A stretch of 64,000 nucleotides of DNA from Rodentibacter trehalosifermentans (GTDB lineage Bacteria > Pseudomonadota > Gammaproteobacteria > Enterobacterales > Pasteurellaceae). The stretch lies in contig NZ_MLHL01000015.1 in NCBI RefSeq assembly GCF_002000545.1, positions 62,001 through 126,000 on the forward strand. The letters run 5' to 3'. Positions 4,669 through 19,075 of this stretch are shown piece after piece. Within the stretch, counting starts at the first letter, position 1; the number at the start of each line of letters is the position of its first letter. The translations under genes and the position numbers were made by a program. Below the pieces are notes generated by a model. The model saw only the letters and a program-made list of their open reading frames with translations, was not told where the DNA came from and made no database searches.

Positions 4669-7600
4669 ATGAACAAAGTTTTCAAAATTATTTGGAATCA
4701 AGCGACACAAAGTTTTGTGGTTGTGTCAGAATTAACAAAACGTAGAGGTAAACAATCCTCTTCTACGGATAAACGTCTCGCACCAAGCAAACTTCTCGTG
4801 GCAATGGGAATGGCGGGTGCGTTATTAACGGCGGAATCCGCCTTTGCAGCAACGGCAGATCGGTTGGTCGTCAAAGGTGCCAATACTCCGGTAAAAAATG
4901 TAAATAATCAAGATGCAAATGTCCTCATTGATACTGATTACGGTGGAAATATTGCTCTTGGTTTGAATGCTAAAGCAACTGCAGATCAAGATTCAATTGC
5001 AATAGGTAATAATACAGTTGCTACTGTCCGAAATGCGGTCGTTATTGGTGCAAATGCACAGGGGATTCGTGCAACTGAGAAAAATGTACAAAATCGTCAT
5101 ATTGTAGTAATTGGTACTGACGCGATTGTGCGAAACACAGATAGCCAGCAATCTCGTGGAGCAACTATTATCGGTGGTAATTCTTTAGCCGGTTTGTTAA
5201 CAAGTTCTAATGGTACTTCCACTATTTCTACAGCAAATAACCTCAGAGATGCTGACTATGCGACGGCAACGGGCGATTTAACCGTAGATCGTTTGATGTA
5301 TCGTGCAGGTATGTTTGATGCCGCTGGAAACACATTCCAGAATCAGCTGGATGAGAAAGGAAACGTTATCAATTACTACCAATCAAACGAAGCCACCGCT
5401 ATTGGTTTTGACTCCAGAGCAATCGGCGACCAAGCCATTGCTATTGGTGCGCAGGTTATTGCGGGTCATAGTTCCGTTGCCATTGGTGGTAACGATATGA
5501 CGACCGTTAATACACAAAATAATAGAGAAATTTATAAAAGTATTGTTGGTGACGATTTAGCACCAAATACATTAAAAACCAATGAGATTGATTACGACGG
5601 AAAATCGAAAAAGGACTTCTATGAAACCACCTATGCCAAAAGCGGTTCTGTGGTAATCGGTCAAAAAGCCCATTCCAATTCTTTATTTGGGACAGCATTA
5701 GGTACATCCTCATTCGTTGAAGATGGTGCAGAACTCGGAACCGCTATCGGTACGGGTGCCAGAGTGGGCAAGCAAAGCCCTACTGATATTAACAGTGCTA
5801 CATTCAGCTCAACTTCATTAAAATCAACCAAAGGTGGGGTGGCGATTGCTGCCGGTGCGGTGGCGGAAGGTGATTTTACCACCGCTGTGGGTACGGGTGC
5901 ACAAGCCTTAGAAATGAATGCAACCGCTGTGGGTTATAAAGCCTTTGCTAACCAAACAAATGCTTTAGCGTTTGGTGCTAATGCAAAATCTCAAGCAGTA
6001 GATGCGGTTGCCATGGGTAGCAATGCAGAGGTTACTTCAACGGGTAATTCTTCCATTGCTTTCGGTACAGGTACAACTGTATCCGGTGAAAAATCCGTCG
6101 CATTGGGTTCAAATATCACCTCTTTAAGCACTGAGGGTTCTGTGGTGTTAGGGGATTCTTCAACAGAAGTTGTGGGTTCAACAGGTGCTTCACACGAAGT
6201 TGGCGCAGTAGAAAGTGCAACCGTGAGAACCTCTGAGGGTGGTACCTTTACTTATAGCGGTTTTGCAGGTCAGCCGAAAGATGCAGGGAAATATGTCTCT
6301 ATCGGTCGTGTTAAGGCTGAACGTCAATTAAAAAATGTGGCGGCAGGTCATATTGATGCTAATTCCACAGATGGGATCAACGGTTCGCAACTTTACGCAG
6401 TGATGACACAAGCGGCAAATCCATTAACATTTACCGCAAATACCAACAAGGCATCACGCGAAGTATTTAATGCCACAACGAATGCAACCGAGACAGTGAG
6501 TAATGTTGGTTTGGATCGTCAATTAGGTCAAACACTGAATATTATTGGTGCGGCAAGAAAGGTTGACGGTATCACCCGCAATGCCGATACCGCTGTTACT
6601 GGCAAGTATTCTGCGAAAAATATTCAAACTATCGTTGATGATAACGGTGTTCAAATCCAAATGGCGGAAAACCCTGAGTTTACCAGTGCGAAAATTGGTG
6701 GCACACCAAAAACAGTAAATGGCACAACGACTATTGAAAATCCAATCACGATTGGTACAACGCCTGATGGTAAAAATGTGATTGGCGGTTTAAATACCAC
6801 TTTACCGGACAATAATACCAGCAATGCATTGACCAAACCGACAAACATCACCACTACAAATGCGGCGACATTAGGCGATGTGCTGAATGCCGGTTGGAAT
6901 TTAAAAAATAATAATAGTACGGTTGATTTTGTTAAACCTTATGACACGGTAAACTTTGTGAACGGTCAAGGCACCATTGCGAAAGCAGAAACTGCCGATA
7001 ACGTCACCACCAATGTGACATTTGATGTAGATTTGGGAACATTTACAACTGTTCCAACTGAAGGTGACGATAAAGGTAAAGCGATTGCCGGCAACACAAC
7101 GACCTATACTGATGCGAACGGTAATCCGGTGACGAAAAATACAGACGGTACTTATACCGATGTAGATGGGAACCCTATCGCTGAAGGTGATGTGACAACA
7201 AATGTAGAAAATCACGATAACAAAATAGCCACGATTGGCGATATTGCCAATACCATTAACAATGTATTCCATACGGTAAATACCACCAAAACAAACGAAC
7301 AAATCACTTCTGCGGAAGATAACACTGGCGTAGCGGTGAAAGCGGGCGATACGCTTAACTTTGTGGCAGCGAAAAATCTCGAAATCAAGCAAGATAATCA
7401 CACTATTACTTATGGTTTATCAAATGATATTGAGGTGAATAGTGCAACCGTTGGTAAAGCGGGCAAAGTGGATGAAAACGGTAATCCAGTTGTGCAGTCC
7501 TCAAACGGTAACTACTACCCAGAGGGTACGCAGTTGGACGAAAACGGAGATCCGGTCGATCCGAGCGTTCAACCGATTGACCCGACTAAGGTGAAAAATG

Positions 7601-10600
7601 CTACGGCTGTGGAATTAACAGCGGATAAAGGTGTTTCCACTAAGGACACAACATTAGAACCTCGTGATCCTAATGATCCTAACAGCAATGTAACCGTGAA
7701 TAATCCGCCAACAGCATTAAGCGTGAAAGATGCCAATGGCGAAAACAGCCAAATCAATGGTATTGCTTCGGCATTGGGAACAAAAGAGGTTGCAACGAAA
7801 AATCCTGAAAATGCAACTACCCCAACCGGCAAAGATACTTTAGTGGATTTAACTCCGCCAACTGACCCGGCAGATAAAGCCAAATGGGAATCCAGTGCGG
7901 TCACTGTGGGTGATATTGCCAAAATGGGTTGGATTGTTTCTGCTGAAGGTAACAATTACACCGATACCGTGAAAAACGCTAATGAAGTGAAATTCAAAGG
8001 TAAAAACGGTATATCTGTTACAGGTGAAACCAAAGACGGTGTACGTGAAATTACTGTTGCCATTGAAGAGGGTGAAGTCGTTAAACCTAACGAAGGCACT
8101 TACAATGGAAAAGATGTTATCGTTGCCGGTGATGGTAAAGTCTATAACAAAGGCGATATTGATCCGACAACCGGTAAACCGTTTGCAGGTAAAGACCCGA
8201 TTAAAGACCCGACTGATCCAACTAAAGATTTAACACCGGATCAAGTTGTAAATAATGGTAAAAACTTTGTAACCGGTAATAAAGTTGCTCAAGCTATCCA
8301 AGAATCCGGTTTCTGGGTGGGTAAAGAAAAAGATACATCTGACATTACATTTAATAATGCGGATGAAAAAGTCAATCCAAACGATGAACTTCGTTTCGCA
8401 GACGGTAAAGGCACGATTGTCAGCACAGGTACAGTGAAACGCATCGATCCGAACGGTGAAGTGGAAACTAAAACTGTTGTGAAAGTGGATGTGGATACCG
8501 CTAAAGTGGAAGCAGATACCGATGGTTCTATCAAAGATCCATTGGCAGATGCAAAAAATGCGGTGAAACAAGCGGAAGAGGCTTTAGCTGCAAATCCAAC
8601 TGATCCGGATTTACAACAAGCATTAGAAGATGCGAAAGCGGAAGAAGTGAAAGCCGGCAACAAACTTGCTACGGCAGGTGATGTAGCAAATGCGATCAAT
8701 AATTCCGGTTGGAGAACCAACTCAACAACCGCAACCGGCGATGCCTCTGAAACCTTGATTAATCCGGGTGAAGCCGTGAACTTTGAAGCCGGCAAAAATA
8801 TGCAGGTTACACAAAGTATTGAAAAAGATGAGGTAACCGGAAAAGAAACGGTGAGCTACACTTACTCAACAAAAGATGATGTCGAGTTTAACAGTGCGAA
8901 AATTGGTATGCCGAATAAAGTTGATTCTAACGGAGATCCGGTTGTGCAAGCTAAAAACGGTAACTACTACCCAGCCGGTACAGAAATGGATCCAGCAACA
9001 GGCAACCCTGTTGATTCCTCTGTAAATCCAATTAATCCAAGTGACGTGAAAGATCGCTTTACACCTGTGGAATTAACCGCAGATAAGGGGATTTCTACTA
9101 AGGAGATTACATTAGTTCCTGAAGATGAGAATGATCCTAACAGCAAACTTGTTGAAAAAGTTGAAGTTAAAGATCCAACAGCCCTAAGCGTGAAAGATGC
9201 GGAGGGTAATAACAGCCAAATCAATGGTATTGCTTCGGCATTGGATAAAAAAGTCGTTAACACAAACCCTGCTAATGACACACCGATAGACAAAGATGTC
9301 TTAGTGGATTTAACCCCACCAAGCGATTCGGCAGAGAGAGCCAAATGGGAATCCAGTGCGGTTACTGTGGGTGATATTGCCAATATGGGTTGGATTGTTT
9401 CCGCCGAAGGTAATAAGTACACCGATACCGTGAAAAATTCCAATGAGGTGAAATTTATTGGTGATAACGGTATTTCGGTTAAAGGTGCAACCAATGCAAC
9501 AACAGGTGTACGTGAAATTACCATAGCAATGGAACAAGGCGAGGTGATTAAACCTAACGAAGGCACTTACGGTGATGATAATAAGCCTGTTGTGATTGTT
9601 GATGGTAAAGTTTATAACAAAGCCGACATCGATCCGACAACCGGTAAACCGTTTGCAGGTAAAGACCCGATTAAAGACCCGACTGATCCAACTAAAGATT
9701 TAAGACCGGATCAAGTTGTAAATAATGGTAAAAACTTTGTAACCGGTAATAAGGTTGCTCAAGCTATCCAAGAATCCGGTTTCACTGTGGGTAAAGAAAC
9801 TACTGTAATAGCCGATGATCTATTTGCTAATGCGGATGAAAAAATCAATCCAAACGATGAACTTCGTTTTGCAGATGGTAAAGGTACGATTGTCAGCACC
9901 GCTACAGTGAAACAAACTGATCCTAAGGGTGAAGTGACAACCAAAACCGTGGTGAAAGTGGATGTGGATACAGGAGCATCAACAGTTCAGAATGATGGTA
10001 AGGCTTCCACTATCACTTATGAAGATACTGACGGTAAGCCAGTAACTAAAAATGAGGATGGAACTTACACCAAACAGGATGGCTCACCTATTGATGTAGC
10101 TGATGTAACGACTGTGGATAACACTAATAAAGTCGCAACGGTTGGGGATATTGTGGATACCATTAATAATGTCTCCCATACGGTCAATACCACCAAAACA
10201 AACGAGCAAATCACTTCTGCACCGGATAGCAAGGGCGTTAAGGTGAAAGCCGGTGATACGTTGAATTTTGCGGCAGCGAAAAACCTCGAAATCAAACAAG
10301 AGGGTCATAACATTACTTATGGCTTATCAAAAGATATTGAGGTGGGTAGTGTCAGAATCGGTGAAGCCGGGAAAATGGATTCACAGGGTAACCCGGTTGT
10401 TCAAGTCGATGGCAAGTACTACAAGCCTGATGACATTGATCCGAATACAGGTAAGCCTAAAGACGGTGCAGTACCAACCCCTGACGATAAAGTTGTAGAG
10501 CGTTCCGTGGTGATGAAACCAACCACAACGACTGTTGCTGATGGTAACATCGCTCCGGCGATTGATGTAAACGGTGGAACTTTCACCGGTATGGCATCAA

Positions 10601-11685
10601 ATTTACCAAATGCGACAAGTACAGGAAGTCAACCGACAACAGAAGCACCAATTACCGCAGAGCAAGCGGCTGATTTAGCGAATAAATCCGGTAGCAATGC
10701 GGCAACTTTAGGTGATGTATTAAATGCCGGTTGGAACCTGAAAGAAAACGGTACCAAAAAAGACTTTGTCAAACCTTATGATACTGTGAACTTTGTCAAT
10801 GGTAATGGAACGACAGCGAATGTCACCGTAACTAATGGTACGATGAGTGACGTGACTTATCATGTTAATGTTGATGATAAGACAACGGAAATCACTTATA
10901 CCAATACTGCAGGTGATACACTTTACAAACAAGCTGACGGTACTTATAACACGCAACGTGATGGTTCAGGTACAAAAGTTGATGCGGGTGATGTAACCGG
11001 TAGCCAAGTATCGGCAAAAACCTCTCCATTAACAAATAATGTAGATGGTTCGGTAAATACACCGGCAGAACCGACCGCACTTGCCACCGCAGGCGATGTG
11101 GCGAATGCCATCAATAATTCGGGCTTTACCTTGACAACCAGTGCTTCTCAAGGCGTGGTTTCAGGCACAAGTAACCATAAAGTGAACCCGGGTAAAACGG
11201 TCACCATTGATGCAGGTAAAAATATCCAAATCACTCAAAATAATGGTGTGATTTCCGTGGCAACCAAAAACGATGTTGAATTTAACAGCGTGAAAGTCGG
11301 TCCGGTAAGTATCAATAGCAATACCGGTATTGATGCAGGCGGTACGAAAATTACCAATGTTGCACCGGGTACAGCACCAACCGATGCGGTGAATGTTAGC
11401 CAGTTGGAAAAAGCCAAAGGCGATATTTACAACAAAATTAACCGTGATAATAAAGACTTGCGTGCAGGTCTTGCCGGTGCCCGTGCAGCAGCAGGTTTAC
11501 CACAGGTTTACCTACCGGGTAAATCTATGGTTGCTGTCGCAGCCGGTGCTTACCAAGGCGAATCTGCGGTGGCAGTGGGTTACTCCCGTGCCTCAGACAA
11601 CGGTAAACTCATCTTGAAACTCCAAGGTGATACCAACAGCCGCGGTAAAGTGGGGGGGTCCGTAGGTGTGGGTTACCAATGGTAA
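4669..11685 (+). CDS. Giant trimeric autotransporter adhesin (YadA/Hia type)
   Basis: A 2338-residue surface adhesin. Residues 1-60 are an extended signal peptide region ([20 protein letters not shown]...AESAFA). Residues about 85-490 contain YadA-like head repeats ([26 protein letters not shown]). A neck with LKNVAAG...DGINGSQLY lies near residue 555. A long stalk of repeated Trp-ring/KG-type modules follows ([26 protein letters not shown]). A second neck (ITNVAPG...DAVNVSQL) and the C-terminal YadA anchor (about residues 2265-2338, ending [11 protein letters not shown] with terminal Trp) complete it. Each trimer subunit supplies four strands of the outer-membrane barrel. Asp/Gly/Asn/Pro-rich linkers such as [13 protein letters not shown] recur and could bind calcium (inference). 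Signals upstream suggest anaerobic FNR activation. The reading frame is intact throughout. Hia/Hsf or EmaA-like proteins are the nearest known types; the exact receptor cannot be inferred. Confidence 0.95.
7425..9980 (+). repeat. Two in-frame stalk modules of about 490 residues
   Basis: The segment about 7425-8505 is repeated at about 8874-9975. Within it, 8161-8313 and 9631-9783 (offset exactly 1470 bases) differ at only two positions that I can see, while the flanking repeat sequence has diverged much more. Shorter module copies recur elsewhere: [12 protein letters not shown] near 7285 and 10190, and [14 protein letters not shown] near 6925 and 10765. Confidence 0.85.
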
Positions 11686-11747: not shown

Positions 11748-11863
11748 GCATTATAGGAATATTATTGGGCTAAAACCTAAGGATTTCAGTAATATATAGC
11801 GACTGTGTTGCATAATATCGAAAAAAATTTCCGTAAAAATGACCGCTCTTTGTCTTTTCAGTC

Positions 11864-12814
11864 TTACCACATTTGATAAAGGGCGATCACCAGCGGCATA
11901 GTGAACACGCAAAGGAAGGTGGTGACGCCATAAATTGCACTGGCTTTTTGTGCATTGTTGCCAAAAATCAATGCCATTTGCGTGACGGTAGCGGCGGACG
12001 GGCTGGTGGTGGCGAGGAAGCTAATCATCGCAATGGTTTCGCCATTTTCCACCCAACCGGCAAAGCCGCAAAGTTTCACGATAACCAACAGAAAAAGCGG
12101 GATAATCACTAAACGAAGTGCGGTAATTAAATAAATACGTTTTGAGGAAAAAATATTTCGTAGTGGGATTGAGGCGATCAACATTCCGGCAATAAGCATG
12201 GCGTTTGGACCGATGAAAACCCCGACAGAAGAAAGTGTACCGTTAATAAACGGCGGTAATTTGATTTGAAAAGCAAAGAGAATGATGCCGATAAAAATCG
12301 ACCACATATTGATGTTTTTCAAAATGACTTTCAGGCTTAAATTGCCTTTTCCTACGATAATCAGGCGGCAGTGCGTCCAAAATAAAAAGGTTTGCACCAC
12401 AATAAAACAGCTGGCATAAATAACCCATTCTTTACCGAATAGGGACATCACAATCGGAATAATCAAATTGCCGGAATTGGAATAAATGGAAGCGGCGTGC
12501 TCAATGGGATCAAGTTTGAACAGACGTTTTAACAGGCTACCCGTGGCGATGAGGATAAGCTGCAAAAAGATCGCCATAGCGAGGGAAAGCATTAACCCCC
12601 GCAGAATTTCGGGCGTGTAGTCGATTTGAAATGCCTCAATCATCACCGCCGGGCTGATAATGTAAAGCCCGATAATCGACAGCGGTTTACTGTCTTCCGA
12701 CTTTAACAGTTTGGCTTTCACCAACCCATACCCCATCAGCACCACAAGGGTGAGTTCAATAATTTTGTTACCGAGTAAAAATGCAATATCCATGATGTGT
12801 GAGCAATTTTTCAT
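11864..12814 (-). CDS. AEC (auxin efflux carrier) family transporter
   Basis: A 316-residue protein with about ten hydrophobic segments in two halves, typical of the AEC/BART family (PF03547), which includes bacterial malonate or other carboxylate transporters. Characteristic regions are LVVLMGYGLVKAKLL near the N-terminus, SNSGNLIIPIV mid-way and the C-terminal FLATTSPSAATVTQMA. Two starts are possible, ATG at 12814 or at 12793 (MDIAFLLGNK); neither has a clear ribosome-binding site. The substrate is not evident. It is transcribed away from the adhesin terminator and lies downstream of the unknown four-gene operon, separated from it by a long dyad. Confidence 0.82.
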   Translation of the reverse strand: MKNCSHIMDIAFLLGNKIIELTLVVLMGYGLVKAKLLKSEDSKPLSIIGLYIISPAVMIEAFQIDYTPEILRGLMLSLAMAIFLQLILIATGSLLKRLFKLDPIEHAASIYSNSGNLIIPIVMSLFGKEWVIYASCFIVVQTFLFWTHCRLIIVGKGNLSLKVILKNINMWSIFIGIILFAFQIKLPPFINGTLSSVGVFIGPNAMLIAGMLIASIPLRNIFSSKRIYLITALRLVIIPLFLLVIVKLCGFAGWVENGETIAMISFLATTSPSAATVTQMALIFGNNAQKASAIYGVTTFLCVFTMPLVIALYQMW

Positions 12815-12823
12815 TATAGAAAT

Positions 12824-12895
12824 GATAAAGTGCGGTGATTTAAATCTCCCCTAACCCTCTTTACAAAAGAGGGGGATTTTTCACCGCACTTTATC
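12824..12895. terminator. Nested dyad terminator between the unknown operon and the AEC gene
   Basis: Outer arms are a perfect 15-bp inverted repeat containing uptake signals (12824-12838 and 12881-12895). An inner hairpin CCCTCTTT/AAAGAGGG lies between them. The whole can fold as a long cruciform stem and probably ends the leftward operon that stops at 12949. Confidence 0.65.
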
Positions 12896-12948
12896 AGTGT
12901 AGGAAAATAGGTTAAGACTACGTATTTATAAGGTACACTAAATTACAT

Positions 12949-13956
12949 TTATCTTAATTCAAGTTTATAAAACACATGTTCAATTGCATAGCGGTAATTA
13001 TTGAATGTCCTTAAATCAGAGACATGGTTTTTAATTTTTACATAATGTCTACATTGCATTTCATCAGTGAGGGTTCTAATCGGTGAAGTGAGCTGCTGGA
13101 AATATGCTCTAGTCAAAATTTTATTTGAAAGTTTTTCTATATTAGGTATTTGCTTCGCATCTTCGGCTCGATGTGATTCCCAAATAGGGGTAATTTTAAT
13201 TCCGCTGGAAAAAATATCCATCTTAAATAAATACTCAACTGCACCTTCAGCATTTGCCCAACAAGGTGGTAAATCTCTTCCACCTTGTGCTTCAAGTCGT
13301 TTACGTAAATAGGCAACTTGTCCTTGTAAATTAATATTTTCTTTTGTATTTGTGTCGTTTAGCTTGGAAACTAAGTTATGAATTAGCTTTTCTCGTTCTT
13401 GCTCAGATATATCAGGAATTGAAGCCAGCATATTCTCAATAGTATGATTTAATTTAACTGATTGAGTTAAGTAGTTCTGAACTGCATTTAAATCCGTATG
13501 ATCAACGCCCGCATCTTTAGCTGCTAATAATATACTTTCATTAAAAGCTGAAATTTCAGCGATTTTATCAGCCAGCTCTTCACGGCTCAGATCTTTACCT
13601 AAGATTTCAGATAAGCTAGAAAGGAGAGCCTCTTGGCCTTGCAAATTCTCTCTCAACTTTTGAATTTCTTGGTTTGTTTCAAGCATCGCTTTAAGTTGGG
13701 AAATAATTTCATTTGGATCCGAAGTTTGTAATTGCAATACTTTGATGCTTTCCGCAATGACCTGTTTAGAGCCTTCATAATCAATCAAAAGCTCTTTTTG
13801 TTGGTCATTTATTTGTAGCAATTCTTGATTTTCTTTCACTAAATTAAAATACATTGAGCCGAGCAAGAAAAGTAAAATAAAAATAAGCATAAAGGCGATT
13901 TCAGTTAAAGAGAGTTGAAATATCCCCTCATTTTTGCGGTTAAACATTCTACTCAC
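12949..13956 (-). CDS. Single-pass membrane coiled-coil protein, MotB/ExbD-like architecture
   Basis: 335 residues, not matched to a named family. Residues 1-14 are cytoplasmic and basic. Residues about 15-37 (LSLTEIAFMLIFILLFLLGS) form one membrane helix with an acidic residue, E19, at its start, resembling the ion-carrying Asp of ExbD/TolR/MotB. Residues about 40-225 are rich in charged heptads, probably a coiled coil. The last 100 residues form a separate periplasmic-type domain with a PPCWA motif near residue 235 and a second cysteine in MQCRHYVKI, which could form a disulfide. No OmpA peptidoglycan-binding domain is seen, unlike MotB or ZorB. Its start overlaps the end of the preceding gene by 8 bases. 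It is the last gene of the operon. The stator-partner role is inferred from topology and neighbours. Confidence 0.72.
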   Translation of the reverse strand: MSRMFNRKNEGIFQLSLTEIAFMLIFILLFLLGSMYFNLVKENQELLQINDQQKELLIDYEGSKQVIAESIKVLQLQTSDPNEIISQLKAMLETNQEIQKLRENLQGQEALLSSLSEILGKDLSREELADKIAEISAFNESILLAAKDAGVDHTDLNAVQNYLTQSVKLNHTIENMLASIPDISEQEREKLIHNLVSKLNDTNTKENINLQGQVAYLRKRLEAQGGRDLPPCWANAEGAVEYLFKMDIFSSGIKITPIWESHRAEDAKQIPNIEKLSNKILTRAYFQQLTSPIRTLTDEMQCRHYVKIKNHVSDLRTFNNYRYAIEHVFYKLELR

Positions 13957-15253
13957 CTTTTACTCTCTCTTCGCCTGAACGGAAAAGTCCACCCCAAATA
14001 CCTCGTTTTGTACTGGCTTTCTTAATCTCATCTGACATTGTCATGAGACTCCGCTGAATTTCATCTAATGCAGATTGGTAATTGATATTTTCTGCTGGTT
14101 TTTGTGAGGTTTGTTTTAGCTTAATCAGTTCTAAAATTTGCATTAGACTTATGCGAATTTCATCTATCTCAGATTGATAATTGATGTTTTCTGCTGGTTT
14201 TTGTGATACCAACGTATTTAAAAGCTGCGCTATTTGGGTTAGTTCCGCTTTGTAGTCACGCTGTTTTTCCGCCGTGTGCGAAAGTTGTTGTACTGATGAG
14301 CTTAGCGTTGGGATCGCTTGAGTTAATGACGCTAATCTATCTTGCACGGCTTGCATCTCTTTGTTGAGCTGTAAGAAATGCTGTTGCTGATTCCCCATCG
14401 TGCCTTGTAACTGTTTGATGGAGTCATTAAGAATATATTGATTTTCTGTTTGGTGAGATACGTTTTGAGCAAATTGACGGTAGCCGTCTTCAATGGCTCT
14501 CAAGGCTGGTCTTAAATCACTTTGTGATAATAATTCTGTTTGTTTATTTAGCATTTCTGCAAATAAATCTAAGTTTTGTTGTAATCCATCGGTATTTTTT
14601 AATAATCCTTTAATTGAAAGCGCTAATTTTTTATTGGCTTCGACCACGTTATTCGTATCTACACTATATTGTTTTGCGATCTCATCAAAAAATTGTTTGG
14701 CTTGTTTGGCATAACTATTCCCAATTCCTTCCATTGCGCCTTCTAATTGATTACGGCAGTTTTCAGAGTTAAGTGAAATTTCATTTGCTAAACGGGAAAA
14801 TCTATCCGATGCAATTTCCATTTGTTCTGTCATGCGTTCTGTGGCTAATAATAATTTAGCTTCTGCATCGTCCATTTTATCCATTGCGTCTTTTTTAAAA
14901 CCAATGATATAAACACGCGCAATAACGCCAAATAAAGTTGTCACCATTGCAATTGCGAAACGTGCTGCAATGGTATTTATATCATGCCCTATGCTATCTA
15001 AATCAATTAAAATTAATAAAATAGTGGCAATAGTAAAAATAAAGCCTAGATAATAGCAAGAATCCGCAAATTTTTCGTCTGATACCTCATTTTCTCTTAA
15101 TTTCCAACCGAGAATAATATAAATTGCCATAAAAATTAGAGGAAGGATAAAACCAAAAATATAAATATCCTTCAAAAAGAACGCAGCGATCAATGCACCA
15201 AGTTTTAGAACGCAGGCAGCAATAAATAAATATTGAACATTAAGTTTTTGCAT
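13949..15253 (-). CDS. MotA/TolQ/ExbB-like membrane protein with long coiled-coil tail
   Basis: 434 residues. Four membrane segments lie in the first 118 residues (about 8-27, 30-50, 66-85 and 95-118). The last, FAIAMVTTLFGVIARVY, has the small-residue T-T-x-x-G pattern of the pore helix in the MotA/TolQ/ExbB/ZorA ion-channel superfamily. Residues about 120-430 are almost entirely helical and heptad-rich, resembling the long intracellular tail of ZorA. A 33-residue unit (SQKPAENINYQS...) is tandemly repeated near residues 350-395. Starts 3 bases after the vWA-like gene stops and overlaps the next gene by 8 bases. No ZorC/D/E homologue is present, so this is not a standard Zorya system. Alternative: a structural coiled-coil membrane protein without ion transport. 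Confidence 0.7.
   Translation of the reverse strand: MQKLNVQYLFIAACVLKLGALIAAFFLKDIYIFGFILPLIFMAIYIILGWKLRENEVSDEKFADSCYYLGFIFTIATILLILIDLDSIGHDINTIAARFAIAMVTTLFGVIARVYIIGFKKDAMDKMDDAEAKLLLATERMTEQMEIASDRFSRLANEISLNSENCRNQLEGAMEGIGNSYAKQAKQFFDEIAKQYSVDTNNVVEANKKLALSIKGLLKNTDGLQQNLDLFAEMLNKQTELLSQSDLRPALRAIEDGYRQFAQNVSHQTENQYILNDSIKQLQGTMGNQQQHFLQLNKEMQAVQDRLASLTQAIPTLSSSVQQLSHTAEKQRDYKAELTQIAQLLNTLVSQKPAENINYQSEIDEIRISLMQILELIKLKQTSQKPAENINYQSALDEIQRSLMTMSDEIKKASTKRGIWGGLFRSGEERVKGE
14056..14206 (-). repeat. Tandem 99-bp duplication in the coiled-coil tail
   Basis: About 52 bases at 14056-14107 recur at 14155-14206 with few changes, an exact 99-base (33-codon) period encoding the repeated SQKPAENINYQS units. 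The period keeps frame and approximates three hendecads, so it would lengthen the helix without breaking register. Confidence 0.85.
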
Positions 15254-15256
15254 TTT

Positions 15257-16060
15257 TTATCCTTCTAACGGTCGAACTTCGATAATTCTTGCATTCGCTT
15301 TATTAAAAAAGTTTTCCCAAAATAATAAATTACTACGCGTTTGTAATTTAGGGTTATTCATTAAATAAATAATTTTAACTCTCACACTATCTAAATGCGA
15401 TTGTACTTTTGTAGCATAATTTTGTTTCTCAAACGCCTCATAGTTTAATTTAGGCATTTTATACATAGAAAAATCATCGGTGTTTTGTAACATATCTGAA
15501 ACAATAATTAGGCTTTTTTTGCCTTGAATATTATGTTTTCTAAATCCATTTATAGATACCATTTGAATTTGTTCCATAATAGGCGATTTTTTGGCTGGTT
15601 CTAAATCAATTAATTCATTGGTTATTTTTAAAATAGGCGCCATAAATTTATCTTCATACTGCGTTTTTAAACGTTTTAAATTCGCTGTCCATTCAGATTT
15701 ATCTTTACCATCTCCAGGGTTACAAATTTCTAAAATTGTCTCATTATTTTCCTTGAAGTCTTCACCCAAAGCAAAAACAGAAACTAACTCACCCTTATCA
15801 ATTTGACTATCCATTAAGTTGTTGATCAGAACTTGAAGAGCCTGCTTTTGCGTAAAATTTAAAGGATCAGTTTTATCAATTAATAATACCGTATGCGCCA
15901 CGGGTCCACTCACAGGGCAAAGGGTTTGCTTATTGATTTGTTCTTTATTAGATGAATGCCAATAATAAACGCCCCCCCCGACAAATACGATGACAAATAT
16001 CAATAATATTACACCCCATACTATATAATTATTTTCTTGTTTTTTTCTACGCTTACTCAT
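15257..16060 (-). CDS. Membrane-anchored von Willebrand A-like protein
   Basis: 267 residues. A basic N-terminus and one membrane helix (about residues 12-34) precede an extracytoplasmic domain. The domain starts with a hydrophobic strand HTVLLIDKTDPLNFTQKQA, where DKTD replaces the DxSxS of a classical metal-binding MIDAS site. A second strand KKSLIIVSDMLQ carries the Asp expected on a later vWA strand. I infer a von Willebrand factor A-like fold with a partial MIDAS, from pattern only. The start overlaps the end of the upstream gene by 8 bases and the stop lies 3 bases before the MotA-like gene, so all four genes are coupled. The role is unknown; vWA domains usually mediate protein assembly. 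Confidence 0.65.
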   Translation of the reverse strand: MSKRRKKQENNYIVWGVILLIFVIVFVGGGVYYWHSSNKEQINKQTLCPVSGPVAHTVLLIDKTDPLNFTQKQALQVLINNLMDSQIDKGELVSVFALGEDFKENNETILEICNPGDGKDKSEWTANLKRLKTQYEDKFMAPILKITNELIDLEPAKKSPIMEQIQMVSINGFRKHNIQGKKSLIIVSDMLQNTDDFSMYKMPKLNYEAFEKQNYATKVQSHLDSVRVKIIYLMNNPKLQTRSNLLFWENFFNKANARIIEVRPLEG

Positions 16061-17528
16061 TCAATCCTCCATTAAATTTCATATCATAAATTGCATTTAA
16101 ATGATCAAATTGCTGATTAAATGTGCGATTAATCTCCGCTTTAAAATCCGCTATTCTTGTGAAAAATTCGTTCGCTTTTTGCTCACTTTTATCTAGGTTA
16201 TCCCTGTCGTGATTTGGATCAAATTCAGCTTGTAAATCAATTTTTTTCAATTCAATCTCTTTTTGAAAGTAGAGAGGGGCAGGGGTAGTTCGATAAGCGG
16301 CATTTTCATTCCGAAATTTTTGTACTAAACCTTGCAACGTTGTTTGGGCATGTTCCATTCTATGTTCAAAAACGGAATGGGTATGAATTTTATCATTGAT
16401 AATTTTATCTTGTTGGACTAAATTATTACGCAGTAATTTTTCATAATTATCTAAATTCATCAATGCCTCTTCTTTAAATTCTTCAATCTCTTCTTTTAAT
16501 TCATTAATTAGACTGTCGTATTCATCTCGTTTATCTTTATAACGAGCATCAGTTTTCCCATAAAACGGATAAGGATCATTCAAATACAGTCCATCAAAAG
16601 CGGCAGCTATCCCAAAAATACAGGTTACCGCACACAATACCCAAGAATTAATATCGTTAAATGTAAAAGGTGAGCTGATGAAATGATTAAGTGCAATTTT
16701 GGCAGTATTTTCTACGTCCAATGCCATCGCATCCCGATAATGTGATACGCCAAGTGCAACGGTAATAATAAGAGATAAACAGATAATCCACGCTAAAATA
16801 CCTAGTAATTTAAGCCCCATATTTCGATGGTTAAAGAAGGGAAGGCTATAGCGTCCTTGAACACAAGCAAGGGTCACATTGACAAAAGCAAACATACCAG
16901 CTTGAATAAAGCCACCAATCAAACCACCATCACTACCTTGAGCAAAAAAGTAGGCATTAGCGACACCTTCGACAATAATTAAGGCAAGCAAGAGCATTAT
17001 CATAAAGAAATATTTTCCCCCGGAAGGTTTGATAGGATCTCTATCAATACGATGCTTTTGACGAAACTCGCATAATTCCTTTTTGGCTCTGGAAAAACTT
17101 TGTTCAACCTCATCCAGCTCAATTTTTCGTTGTGAAAGTAGATCATTCACTTTTTGTGTAAAGGATTCTTTGATAAGCAGGGCATTATCTGTCAATCCTT
17201 TCACTTGTAGAACTAAATCAGTAAGATTTTTATCTTGAATGTTAATACGGCTATCCCGCCAAGATGCACATTTTGCGCGGTATCGCTCAATTTCACTGCG
17301 AATAGAAGATTCAATACCCGATAATATATGATCTGATGAAGATGGAATATTTTTCTCTCCTAATTTTCTTGCCTGAGATGTCAAATCAAGTTCTTGTTCC
17401 ATTTTTTTCATCTCAATTTCATCAAATTGTGGCAGTTTGGAAATTGCTTCAATAGATTCTGATTTTTCTATTGGAGACAAAGTAAAAAGATTAGAAAAAA
17501 ACTTCCAAATTTTTGAAAAGAATGACAC
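16053..17528 (-). CDS. Four-helix membrane protein flanked by coiled coils, unknown function
   Basis: 491 residues, no family recognised. Residues about 30-170 are charged and heptad-rich. Four membrane segments follow (about 175-197, 206-222, 240-262 and 295-313). Residues about 330-490 are again helical and charged. Translation begins at GTG (17526-17528) with AAGGA six bases upstream; this gives the first gene of the four-gene operon. The topology, a small membrane core with long cytoplasmic helices at both ends, suggests a scaffold or partner for the MotA-like protein. The coding strand is AT-rich compared with ffh next door, and no uptake signal occurs in it. Confidence 0.72.
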   Translation of the reverse strand: MSFFSKIWKFFSNLFTLSPIEKSESIEAISKLPQFDEIEMKKMEQELDLTSQARKLGEKNIPSSSDHILSGIESSIRSEIERYRAKCASWRDSRINIQDKNLTDLVLQVKGLTDNALLIKESFTQKVNDLLSQRKIELDEVEQSFSRAKKELCEFRQKHRIDRDPIKPSGGKYFFMIMLLLALIIVEGVANAYFFAQGSDGGLIGGFIQAGMFAFVNVTLACVQGRYSLPFFNHRNMGLKLLGILAWIICLSLIITVALGVSHYRDAMALDVENTAKIALNHFISSPFTFNDINSWVLCAVTCIFGIAAAFDGLYLNDPYPFYGKTDARYKDKRDEYDSLINELKEEIEEFKEEALMNLDNYEKLLRNNLVQQDKIINDKIHTHSVFEHRMEHAQTTLQGLVQKFRNENAAYRTTPAPLYFQKEIELKKIDLQAEFDPNHDRDNLDKSEQKANEFFTRIADFKAEINRTFNQQFDHLNAIYDMKFNGGLNE

Positions 17529-17686: not shown

Positions 17687-19075
17687 TTAACGTCTAAACA
17701 TTCCCCCTAAACCACCGAGGCCGCCTAAGCCTCCGCCCATTAATCCTTGCATACCTCGCATCATTTTTGACATTCCGCCTTTACGCATTTTTTTCATCAT
17801 TCGCTGCATTTCGTCAAATTGTTTGAGCAATTTGTTCACATCCTGCACCTGAGTGCCAGAACCCAATGCAATACGGCGGCGACGGGATCCTTTGATAATA
17901 TCGGGATTAGCCCGCTCTTTTAAGGTCATGGAATTAATAATGGCTTCCATTTTGACGAACATTTTATCATCCACTTGGTTTTTGATGTGATCAGGCAAAT
18001 TCTTTGTACCGGGAAGCTTTTCTAGCATAGACATCATTCCGCCCATTTTTTTCATTTCAATTAATTGTTCACGGAAATCATCTAAGGTAAAGGCATCGCC
18101 TTTTTTGAATTTTTGTGCCATTTTTTCCGCTTTTTCACGATCTACCGAGCGTTCAAGATCTTCAATAAGGGAAAGCACATCACCCATGCCTAAAATGCGG
18201 GAGGCAACACGATCCGGATGGAAAGGTTCGAGGGCATCGGTTTTTTCACCAACCCCAAGGAATTTAATGGGTTTACCTGTGATTTGACGAATAGACAGGG
18301 CTGCACCGCCACGGGCATCACCATCGACTTTGGTAAGAATGACCCCGGTAAGTGGCAGTGCTTCATTAAAGGCTTTTGCCGTGTTGGCGGCATCTTGCCC
18401 TGTCATCGCATCAACGGTAAAAAGGGTTTCGATAGGATTTAACGAACTGTGGATTTGTTTGATTTCCTCCATCATTTCGCCATCTACATGTAGGCGACCG
18501 GCGGTATCCACGATAAGCACGTCATAGAATTTGAGTTTGGCTTCTGCTAAAGCAGCTTTGGCAATCTCTACCGGATTTTGCTTCACATCAGAAGGGAAAA
18601 AATCCACGCCCACAGATTGCGCCAAGGTTTCTAATTGTTTAATGGCAGCCGGGCGGTACACGTCGGCAGAGACAACCAATACTTTCTTTTTGTGGCGTTC
18701 ACGCAAGAATTTTGCCAATTTCCCCACACTGGTGGTTTTTCCCGCACCTTGCAAGCCCGCCATTAAAATCGCAGCAGGGGGTTGGGTGGCAAGATTTAAG
18801 CTTTCGTTTGCTTCCCCCATGGCTTTTTCAAGCTCACGTTGAACGATTTTTAAAAATTCCTGCCCCGGCGTTAAACTTTTATTGACTTCTTCGCCTAACG
18901 CGCTTTCTTTCACTTTGGCGATAAATTCACGCACTACAGGTAATGCCACGTCCGCTTCCAGCAATGCCATACGCACTTCGCGTAGGGTGTCTTTAATATT
19001 ATCTTCCGTTAAACGACCTTTCCCCGTGATATTACGTAGGGTTTTTGAAAGGCGATCAGATAAATTCTCAAACAT
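17687..19075 (-). CDS. ffh: Signal recognition particle protein Ffh
   Basis: A 462-residue SRP GTPase that binds 4.5S RNA and signal sequences and docks with FtsY at the membrane. The N-domain helix bundle is residues 1-95. The G-domain has G1 GLQGAGKTT at 107-115, the DTAGRLHVDGEM G3 region near 190 and TKVDGDARGG near 248. The M-domain follows from about 330, with a Met/Gly-rich tail (MMRGMQGLMGGGLGG) ending MFRR. Length matches the E. coli protein closely. It is divergent from ypjD and corB, an association also seen in E. coli. Confidence 0.97.
   Translation of the reverse strand: MFENLSDRLSKTLRNITGKGRLTEDNIKDTLREVRMALLEADVALPVVREFIAKVKESALGEEVNKSLTPGQEFLKIVQRELEKAMGEANESLNLATQPPAAILMAGLQGAGKTTSVGKLAKFLRERHKKKVLVVSADVYRPAAIKQLETLAQSVGVDFFPSDVKQNPVEIAKAALAEAKLKFYDVLIVDTAGRLHVDGEMMEEIKQIHSSLNPIETLFTVDAMTGQDAANTAKAFNEALPLTGVILTKVDGDARGGAALSIRQITGKPIKFLGVGEKTDALEPFHPDRVASRILGMGDVLSLIEDLERSVDREKAEKMAQKFKKGDAFTLDDFREQLIEMKKMGGMMSMLEKLPGTKNLPDHIKNQVDDKMFVKMEAIINSMTLKERANPDIIKGSRRRRIALGSGTQVQDVNKLLKQFDEMQRMMKKMRKGGMSKMMRGMQGLMGGGLGGLGGLGGMFRR

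Follow-up and report, generated by a model that had tools for sequence, protein, structure and literature searches.

A probable stator-type membrane operon of Rodentibacter trehalosifermentans and its association with secreted nucleases

The window studied here, a stretch of 64,000 nucleotides from contig NZ_MLHL01000015.1 of Rodentibacter trehalosifermentans, carries four minus-strand open reading frames (ORFs; positions 17528-12949 in the ORF list of the window), designated genes A, B, C and D in order of transcription, and this operon likely works, through C and D, as a stator machine. C is probably a pore subunit of the MotA/ExbB/ZorA type, D is a single-pass protein with an acidic membrane helix, and in many relatives a secreted nuclease is found beside the operon or fused to D. 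We place at roughly one in two the probability that this is an envelope system that is driven by a stator and turns a periplasmic nuclease on incoming DNA. A literature search, with preprints outside its coverage and subscription papers thinly covered, found no published description of the four-gene operon. An earlier note on this DNA had described four genes on one strand with 8-base overlaps or a 3-base gap, and the coordinates agree: the A/B and C/D overlaps are 8 bases each and the B/C gap is 3 bases.

The probable pore subunit and the other three proteins

Gene C (13949..15253, minus strand) encodes 434 amino acids, in which three membrane segments are picked out by hydropathy. The AlphaFold2 model of residues 1-220 (predicted local distance difference test, pLDDT, 79.7; predicted template-modelling score, pTM, 0.53) has helices at 6-27, 30-53, 59-83 and 92-118, followed by one long helix, in keeping with the long helical tail that the earlier note had seen on C and that is predicted to be cytoplasmic. 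MotA_ExbB was the sole Pfam family listed for the core of the window C (21.0 bits, E 2.9e-4, profile positions 54-108), and it was found at E<=0.1 in 9 of the 27 C members, every other family occurring in no more than two. When the genome itself was scanned with MotA_ExbB, the 20.6 bits of C fell between the 22.7 and 20.3 bits of the two true ZorA genes; 22.9 bits were reached, elsewhere on the profile, by a gene with secretion-like surroundings. Alignment of the window C to the ExbB-type protein of the same genome gave a z of 5.3 with 0/1000 shuffles as good (the 27 relatives average 7.3), alignment to the TolQ-type protein 2.8 (12/1000), and alignment to the two ZorAs 3.7 and 2.4 (4 and 24/1000), all against shuffles that do not preserve the hydrophobic pattern.

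Polar threonines sit on the two pore helices of stator pore subunits, and it can be seen that T74 and T106 of C, which lie on the last two of the four helices and are invariant in 27/27 members, face threonines in the alignment to the ExbB-type protein. Structure comparison of C by VIA returned stator chains as 20 of its best 50 matches, the best of them being type II ZorA 8vvi_C (Z 9.9, 2.5 A, 93 residues; for helical bundles a Z below 13 can arise by chance). In a profile comparison C scored 6.3% against one ZorA of its own genome and 1.1% against the other. None of these tests is decisive alone, and taken together they make the stator kinship of C very probable.

Gene D (12949..13956, minus strand, 335 amino acids) encodes a MotB/ZorB-like single-pass protein, whose one membrane segment by hydropathy, residues 15-33, contains Glu19. 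This residue is present in D's only helix in 52/52 copies; the residue usual at the acidic position of stator partner helices is Asp, not Glu. The helix is followed by a long coil and then by a two-cysteine domain (PPCW...CRHYV) with Cys232 and Cys302, so that the single pass, the acidic residue and the two-cysteine end described earlier for D are all found. The stator resemblance proposed in the same note for C and D also holds up, on the Pfam score, the invariant threonines, the ZorA match and Glu19, even though each test of C is weak by itself.

Among the aligned D relatives, 15/24 have an OmpA domain; the window D has none, and the two-cysteine domain stands there instead. The kinship of the window D to the OmpA-type D is partly indirect and is drawn from gene place, from the helix and from the intermediates L030 and L045 (loci are numbered L and genomes G). 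The two-cysteine domain reads as common to L044, L045, L048 (start only) and L030, and it had one further match among 229 class-sample genomes, an orphan D-like gene at L149:9604-10626. This gene resembles D in its acidic helix and in its two-cysteine domain; it lies near a Sir2-like ORF, and no C was found there by profile. Behind D, at <=40 bases, a gene that reads as DUF4236-type occurs in 12/51 loci that are mutual close relatives (L050, L051, L054-L057, L059, L060, L062, L064, L067 and L070).

Gene B (15257..16060, minus strand, 267 amino acids) has one membrane segment near its N-terminus by hydropathy. Its AlphaFold2 model (pLDDT 90, pTM 0.83) gave a best Foldseek match at E 9.7e-6 (probability 1.0), and the best 50 matches were mostly integrin I, von Willebrand factor A (vWA), TFIIH, Rpn10-type and Sec23-type chains; VIA found the same fold group (best Z 12.4, 3.4 A, 157 residues). 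Pfam VWA had no match in 24 B members. Going by the modelled fold, B is a membrane-anchored vWA domain. The earlier note had called it vWA-like with a partial metal ion-dependent adhesion site (MIDAS; DKTD), and this was well judged: DKTD is D62-K-T64-D65 in full-protein numbering, the MIDAS-like residues are D62/T64/D65/S159/D189, and D62, D65, S159 and D189 are invariant in 24/24 aligned members. The full MIDAS motif is DxSxS..T..D, and it is not present in B, which reads D-x-T-D-P, the third position being Pro in the window and other residues in relatives. The vWA domain should lie in the periplasm, because the stretch ahead of the helix midpoint has five Lys/Arg and a single acidic residue, and the conserved Cys48 and Cys113 fit this placement. 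The helix of B is without an acidic residue in 51/52 copies, the exception being the truncated L044, and without His in 52/52.

Gene A (16053..17528, minus strand, 491 amino acids) is first in transcription order, and the window copy matched no Pfam family. Hydropathy agrees with the four-helix membrane core between coiled coils that had been described for it, placing four membrane segments at about 174-311 between long, charged, coiled-coil-like parts; these large charged parts are on the likely cytoplasmic side.

Nuclease neighbours and distribution of the operon

At 27/51 loci there is an SNase gene no more than 4.5 kb from the operon, which makes it the commonest neighbour cluster (the 51 do not include L005 and L027, which duplicate L081 and L054; L086, without A, C and D, and a second L084 C fragment were also dropped). 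Where it is upstream of the operon, it shares the operon's strand in 8 loci and is opposed to it in 3; where it is downstream, the corresponding counts are 1 and 15. For this count L032, on the minus strand, was turned by hand. The pattern D-x-D-T...R...DAPE is present in 27/27 of these SNases, and close to the N-terminus 21/27 reach the hydropathy cut-off of 1.6. When the loci were combined into 22 groups by single linkage at 60% identity of B, some member had an SNase in 10 groups and at least half of the members in 9; 11/22 groups have an SNase if fused ones are counted, and 13/22 have any secreted or fused nuclease. The background density, 41 SNases in about 90.7 Mb, predicts 0.1 groups against the 9 observed, and P for 9/22 groups is 6e-5 even at 20x genome density, in a calculation that does not model shared descent and island effects. 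This background was taken from 17 genomes, partly chosen for a known local SNase, in which 53 matches were sorted by hand, the 12 at the operon excluded and the 41 elsewhere used.

In two loci a nuclease is fused behind the OmpA domain of D, an SNase in L031 and GmrSD_C in L028, and by analogy these nucleases would be periplasmic if the topology of D is that of MotB. An Endonuclease_NS gene is found beside the operon of Glaciecola, whose genome has no SNase match. The L060 locus, besides its SNase, has an S1/P1 nuclease nearby. In many relatives, then, the secreted nuclease that adjoins the operon or is fused to D is a likely effector. It escaped the earlier note because the window copy has no adjacent nuclease. 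An SNase elsewhere in the same genome (G000:C42) was considered as a partner and rejected; the one in G034 has the same surroundings.

The order A-B-C-D on one strand was found in 41/42 named-genome loci retrieved with B, among which genes are split into two frames in L049 (B, D) and L084 (C), while in L048 and L066 the contig ends within D. The four genes are therefore far from rarely together, and the conserved unit claimed in the earlier note is borne out, except that A and B also exist without C and D in three genomes. The named loci are mainly from Mesorhizobium and Rhizobium, with others from Stappia, Tistrella, Aureimonas and further genera, and two lie outside these groups, in Glaciecola and in a Bathymodiolus gill symbiont. 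With B as bait, matches were obtained in 18/398 phylum-sample genomes, including the genome of the window. Profiles were then applied to 16 of the 18 (all but this genome and G411), and gave A-B-C-D in 6, A and B only in 3 (G213, G357 and G528), a B-like gene only in 6 and nothing in 1. Since A and B occur without C and D at L033, L034 and L035, A-B may, judging from gene content, be a module of its own. Two of these three loci are near tat-like genes and the third is beside a VirD4/TraG-like gene. A different operon, in which a B-like vWA protein is encoded together with an OmpA-type glycine-zipper protein and a membrane protein of four-helix appearance, was seen in other genomes at L038-L042 (at L037 the B-like gene alone was read). 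Its vWA protein matches B at 98% by hhalign, and its four-helix protein reaches 4.6% against A and is not clearly A; a search of E. coli with the DNA of these trios found nothing.

Closer to the window, C is present in its own genome and in one other among 140 family genomes, and it is absent from all 14 other same-genus genomes searched. In the other family copy, L044 in genome G034, A is spread over two frames and the N-terminus of B is missing, on which grounds that copy may be decaying, or the draft sequence may be wrong. A class-sample search with B matched 7/209 genomes including this one, the other six only distantly; of the three distant matches examined, L157 has a B-like and an A-like gene and L158 and L159 a B-like gene only. 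Among 72,556 plasmid records, 24 matched B, and in 5/5 of those examined A, B and C were found by phmmer and D by its place and helix; plasmid searches with the window C, the window D and the C-terminal domain of D gave no match.

In the window, the operon is flanked on the A side by ffh (17687-19075) and on the D side by an AEC-type permease gene (11864-12814), both named from reading their translations. Its G+C content is 0.30-0.38, against 0.41-0.46 on either side, with 0.37 again at 19-20 kb. At the same site the sister genomes L128, L130 and L131 have an ffh-type gene, then a 112-amino-acid ORF and then the permease. The low G+C, the ORF in the three sisters and the rarity in the family point to horizontal acquisition of the operon. 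A further ORF of the window (4669-11685, 2338 amino acids) reads as a YadA-like trimeric autotransporter adhesin.

The survey of flanking genes covered 84/192 listed proteins, with 25/91 and 25/135 families listed. The PADLOC matches included mad3 and mad8 (3 each), AriA (2) and single matches to RmrA, SngA, PD-Lambda-1, a type IIG restriction-modification system, AbiEii and DrmMI. A DUF4041 plus T5orf172 gene is near the Sinorhizobium copy, and no flagellar, Ton or Tol genes were noticed adjoining the operon. These flanking defence genes are at most suggestive of a defence role. The earlier note had proposed to ask whether the operon sits in defence islands; its spread is patchy, and some defence genes lie nearby.

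A proposed mechanism and its rivals

In the mechanism that we propose, C would form the pore ring and D the single-pass acidic partner of an inner-membrane stator-type motor, and in most relatives D could hold the cell wall. The motor would act together with the four-helix protein A and the membrane-anchored periplasmic vWA protein B. A disturbance of the wall, for example by phage entry, would lead to ion flow through C/D that rotates the complex or puts it under strain, this would be passed on or gated by A and B, and the secreted periplasmic nuclease would cut incoming DNA before or during its crossing of the inner membrane. The window copy may differ from its relatives in mechanism, because its D ends in a different domain and there is no nuclease next to the operon; here the effector may be recruited, or its role taken over, by the two-cysteine end of D. 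From the pattern as a whole we infer nuclease-based periplasmic defence, as its best explanation, and with it a 5:2 assembly, ion drive and sensing as well as the periplasmic cutting. More tentative is the full picture of an undescribed immune machine, in which a stator driven by the proton-motive force reads the wall through D, is gated by a vWA adaptor and activates or aims a periplasmic nuclease, the compartment alone sparing self DNA.

Several results weigh against periplasmic nuclease defence by a stator machine. The Pfam score of the C core is below the curated cut-off of 22.9 bits, and with full-length C the MotA_ExbB match (E 0.012) is outranked by a coiled-coil match at 0.0018. Foldseek with the C model gave no significant match (best E 0.75), 19 of the best 50 being MotA, PomA, ExbB or TolQ chains, and in VIA three designed proteins stood above ZorA, helical bundles reaching high Z by chance. 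A profile of 22 ExbB/TolQ-type proteins scored 0.3% against C, less than against shuffled C (1.8%); this comparison is blind, because a true ZorA of the same genome was also missed (0.2%). A phmmer search with the window D finds only the G034 copy. As to the nucleases, the 15 downstream SNases on the opposite strand cannot share one transcript with the operon, the second catalytic pattern, D..Y-x-R, is found in only 12/27 SNases, and the Rhizobium group has an SNase in just 2/11 loci. The window copy and 24/51 loci have no SNase within 4.5 kb; three of these 24 loci do carry a nuclease that is fused or otherwise secreted, and three are cut by contig ends (L048, L058 and L066). The locus set is dominated by Rhizobiales, and no B relative was confirmed in viral contigs.

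An alternative explanation, which we consider unlikely, is that the operon is a relative of Zorya whose cytoplasmic effector is recruited by the tail of C, the secreted nucleases being merely frequent neighbours in islands. The tail itself is long and helical, like that described for ZorA (PMC11890865), the large charged parts of A are on the likely cytoplasmic side, and some flanking defence genes together with the many loci without a nearby nuclease would be accommodated. However, two nucleases are fused behind an OmpA domain of D that should be periplasmic, the Zorya models miss the window C and D, and the group-level SNase association would be improbable by chance at a 20-fold genome density too.

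Rather less probable, to our minds, is an envelope-maintenance or force-transducing machine with no part in defence, comparable to Tol-Pal or to vWA force transducers. It would suit the OmpA domain of so many D relatives, and vWA proteins beside tolQ-like genes have been proposed as force transducers (PMC12204202). Yet presence in this genome and just one other among 140 of the family, and on plasmids, is unlike a housekeeping function, nucleases recur at the loci, and the helix of B is free of His and, in all but the truncated copy, of acidic residues. It seems improbable that the system serves DNA scavenging or uptake, with the nuclease degrading external DNA and the motor aiding import: a periplasm-facing motor and the secretion of the nucleases would fit, but the spread is patchy and no DNA-transport or competence family was among the flank matches listed (84/192 proteins; 25/91 families). 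Control of an adhesin or secretion system, as in SiiAB, is very improbable, since the YadA-like ORF adjoins the operon in this window only and the neighbour clusters listed include no recurrent adhesin.

If the reading of a stator-driven system with a periplasmic nuclease is true, the Zorya-type motor would be one of several stator-based defence machines, the cutting of invading DNA outside the inner membrane, at the cell surface, would be an undescribed mode, and to tell self from non-self it could be enough to confine the nuclease to a compartment in which incoming DNA is the only DNA. That one motor is accompanied by, or fused to, several kinds of nuclease offers a handle on motor-effector coupling, and the idea is testable, as the genes are compact (4.6 kb) and present in named rhizobial strains.

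Comparison with Zorya and other known systems

The genome of the window also has, outside the window, a Zorya type I (ZorA, B, C, D; L126, G000:C3:1-6000) and a Zorya type II (ZorA, B, E; L124, G000:C31 about 11770-15310), both found by PADLOC. As a positive control, ZorA and ZorB of these two systems matched their PADLOC models at E 1e-93 to 1.3e-166; the same ZorA/ZorB models had no match to the window C or D. Among the 27 C relatives there was one ZorA1 match at E 1.9e-4 and single ZorA2 matches at 0.03-0.2. The window A and B had no Zor match, and no ZorC, ZorD or ZorE is found in the operon. As neither the Zor family models nor the partner genes are matched, the operon is, by sequence comparison, not a member of Zorya. 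The earlier note had proposed a stator motor with two extra partners replacing ZorC/D/E: the stator resemblance, the extra A and B and the missing ZorC/D/E all stand, but it missed the likely nuclease effector, and A-B is also found apart from C/D.

In published work on Zorya (PMC11890865), ZorA has a long cytoplasmic tail, its partner binds the wall through a periplasmic domain and has in its helix an acidic residue that is essential, and there is a nuclease partner. Anti-phage Zorya, ZorAB with ZorCD or ZorE, thus resembles the operon in its long-tailed pore subunit, its acidic-helix partner, whose wall-binding domain has a counterpart in most D relatives, and its nuclease partner. The operon differs in having Glu rather than Asp, the extra A and B and, in relatives, secreted nucleases. 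With MotAB, ExbBD and TolQR the likeness is a weak similarity, in which the pore-helix pattern with both threonines aligns to the ExbB-type protein of the same genome.

The proposed force transducers (PMC12204202, Mol Biol Evol 2025) are described as vWA proteins with an SHLS/His motif beside TolQ/TolR-like genes, or with their own pore Asp and no TolR-like gene. Common to them and the operon is a vWA domain that is anchored by a membrane helix and encoded next to a TolQ-like gene. B is distinct from them because its helix has neither the acidic residue nor His; it is without SHLS/His or pore Asp, the acidic helix is supplied by D, and A and the nucleases are extra. Finally, SNIPE, a DUF4041 membrane nuclease, is reported to cut phage DNA during injection (PMC13190303), and it is described there as a single, mainly cytoplasmic, membrane-anchored protein without a motor, unlike the four-gene operon.

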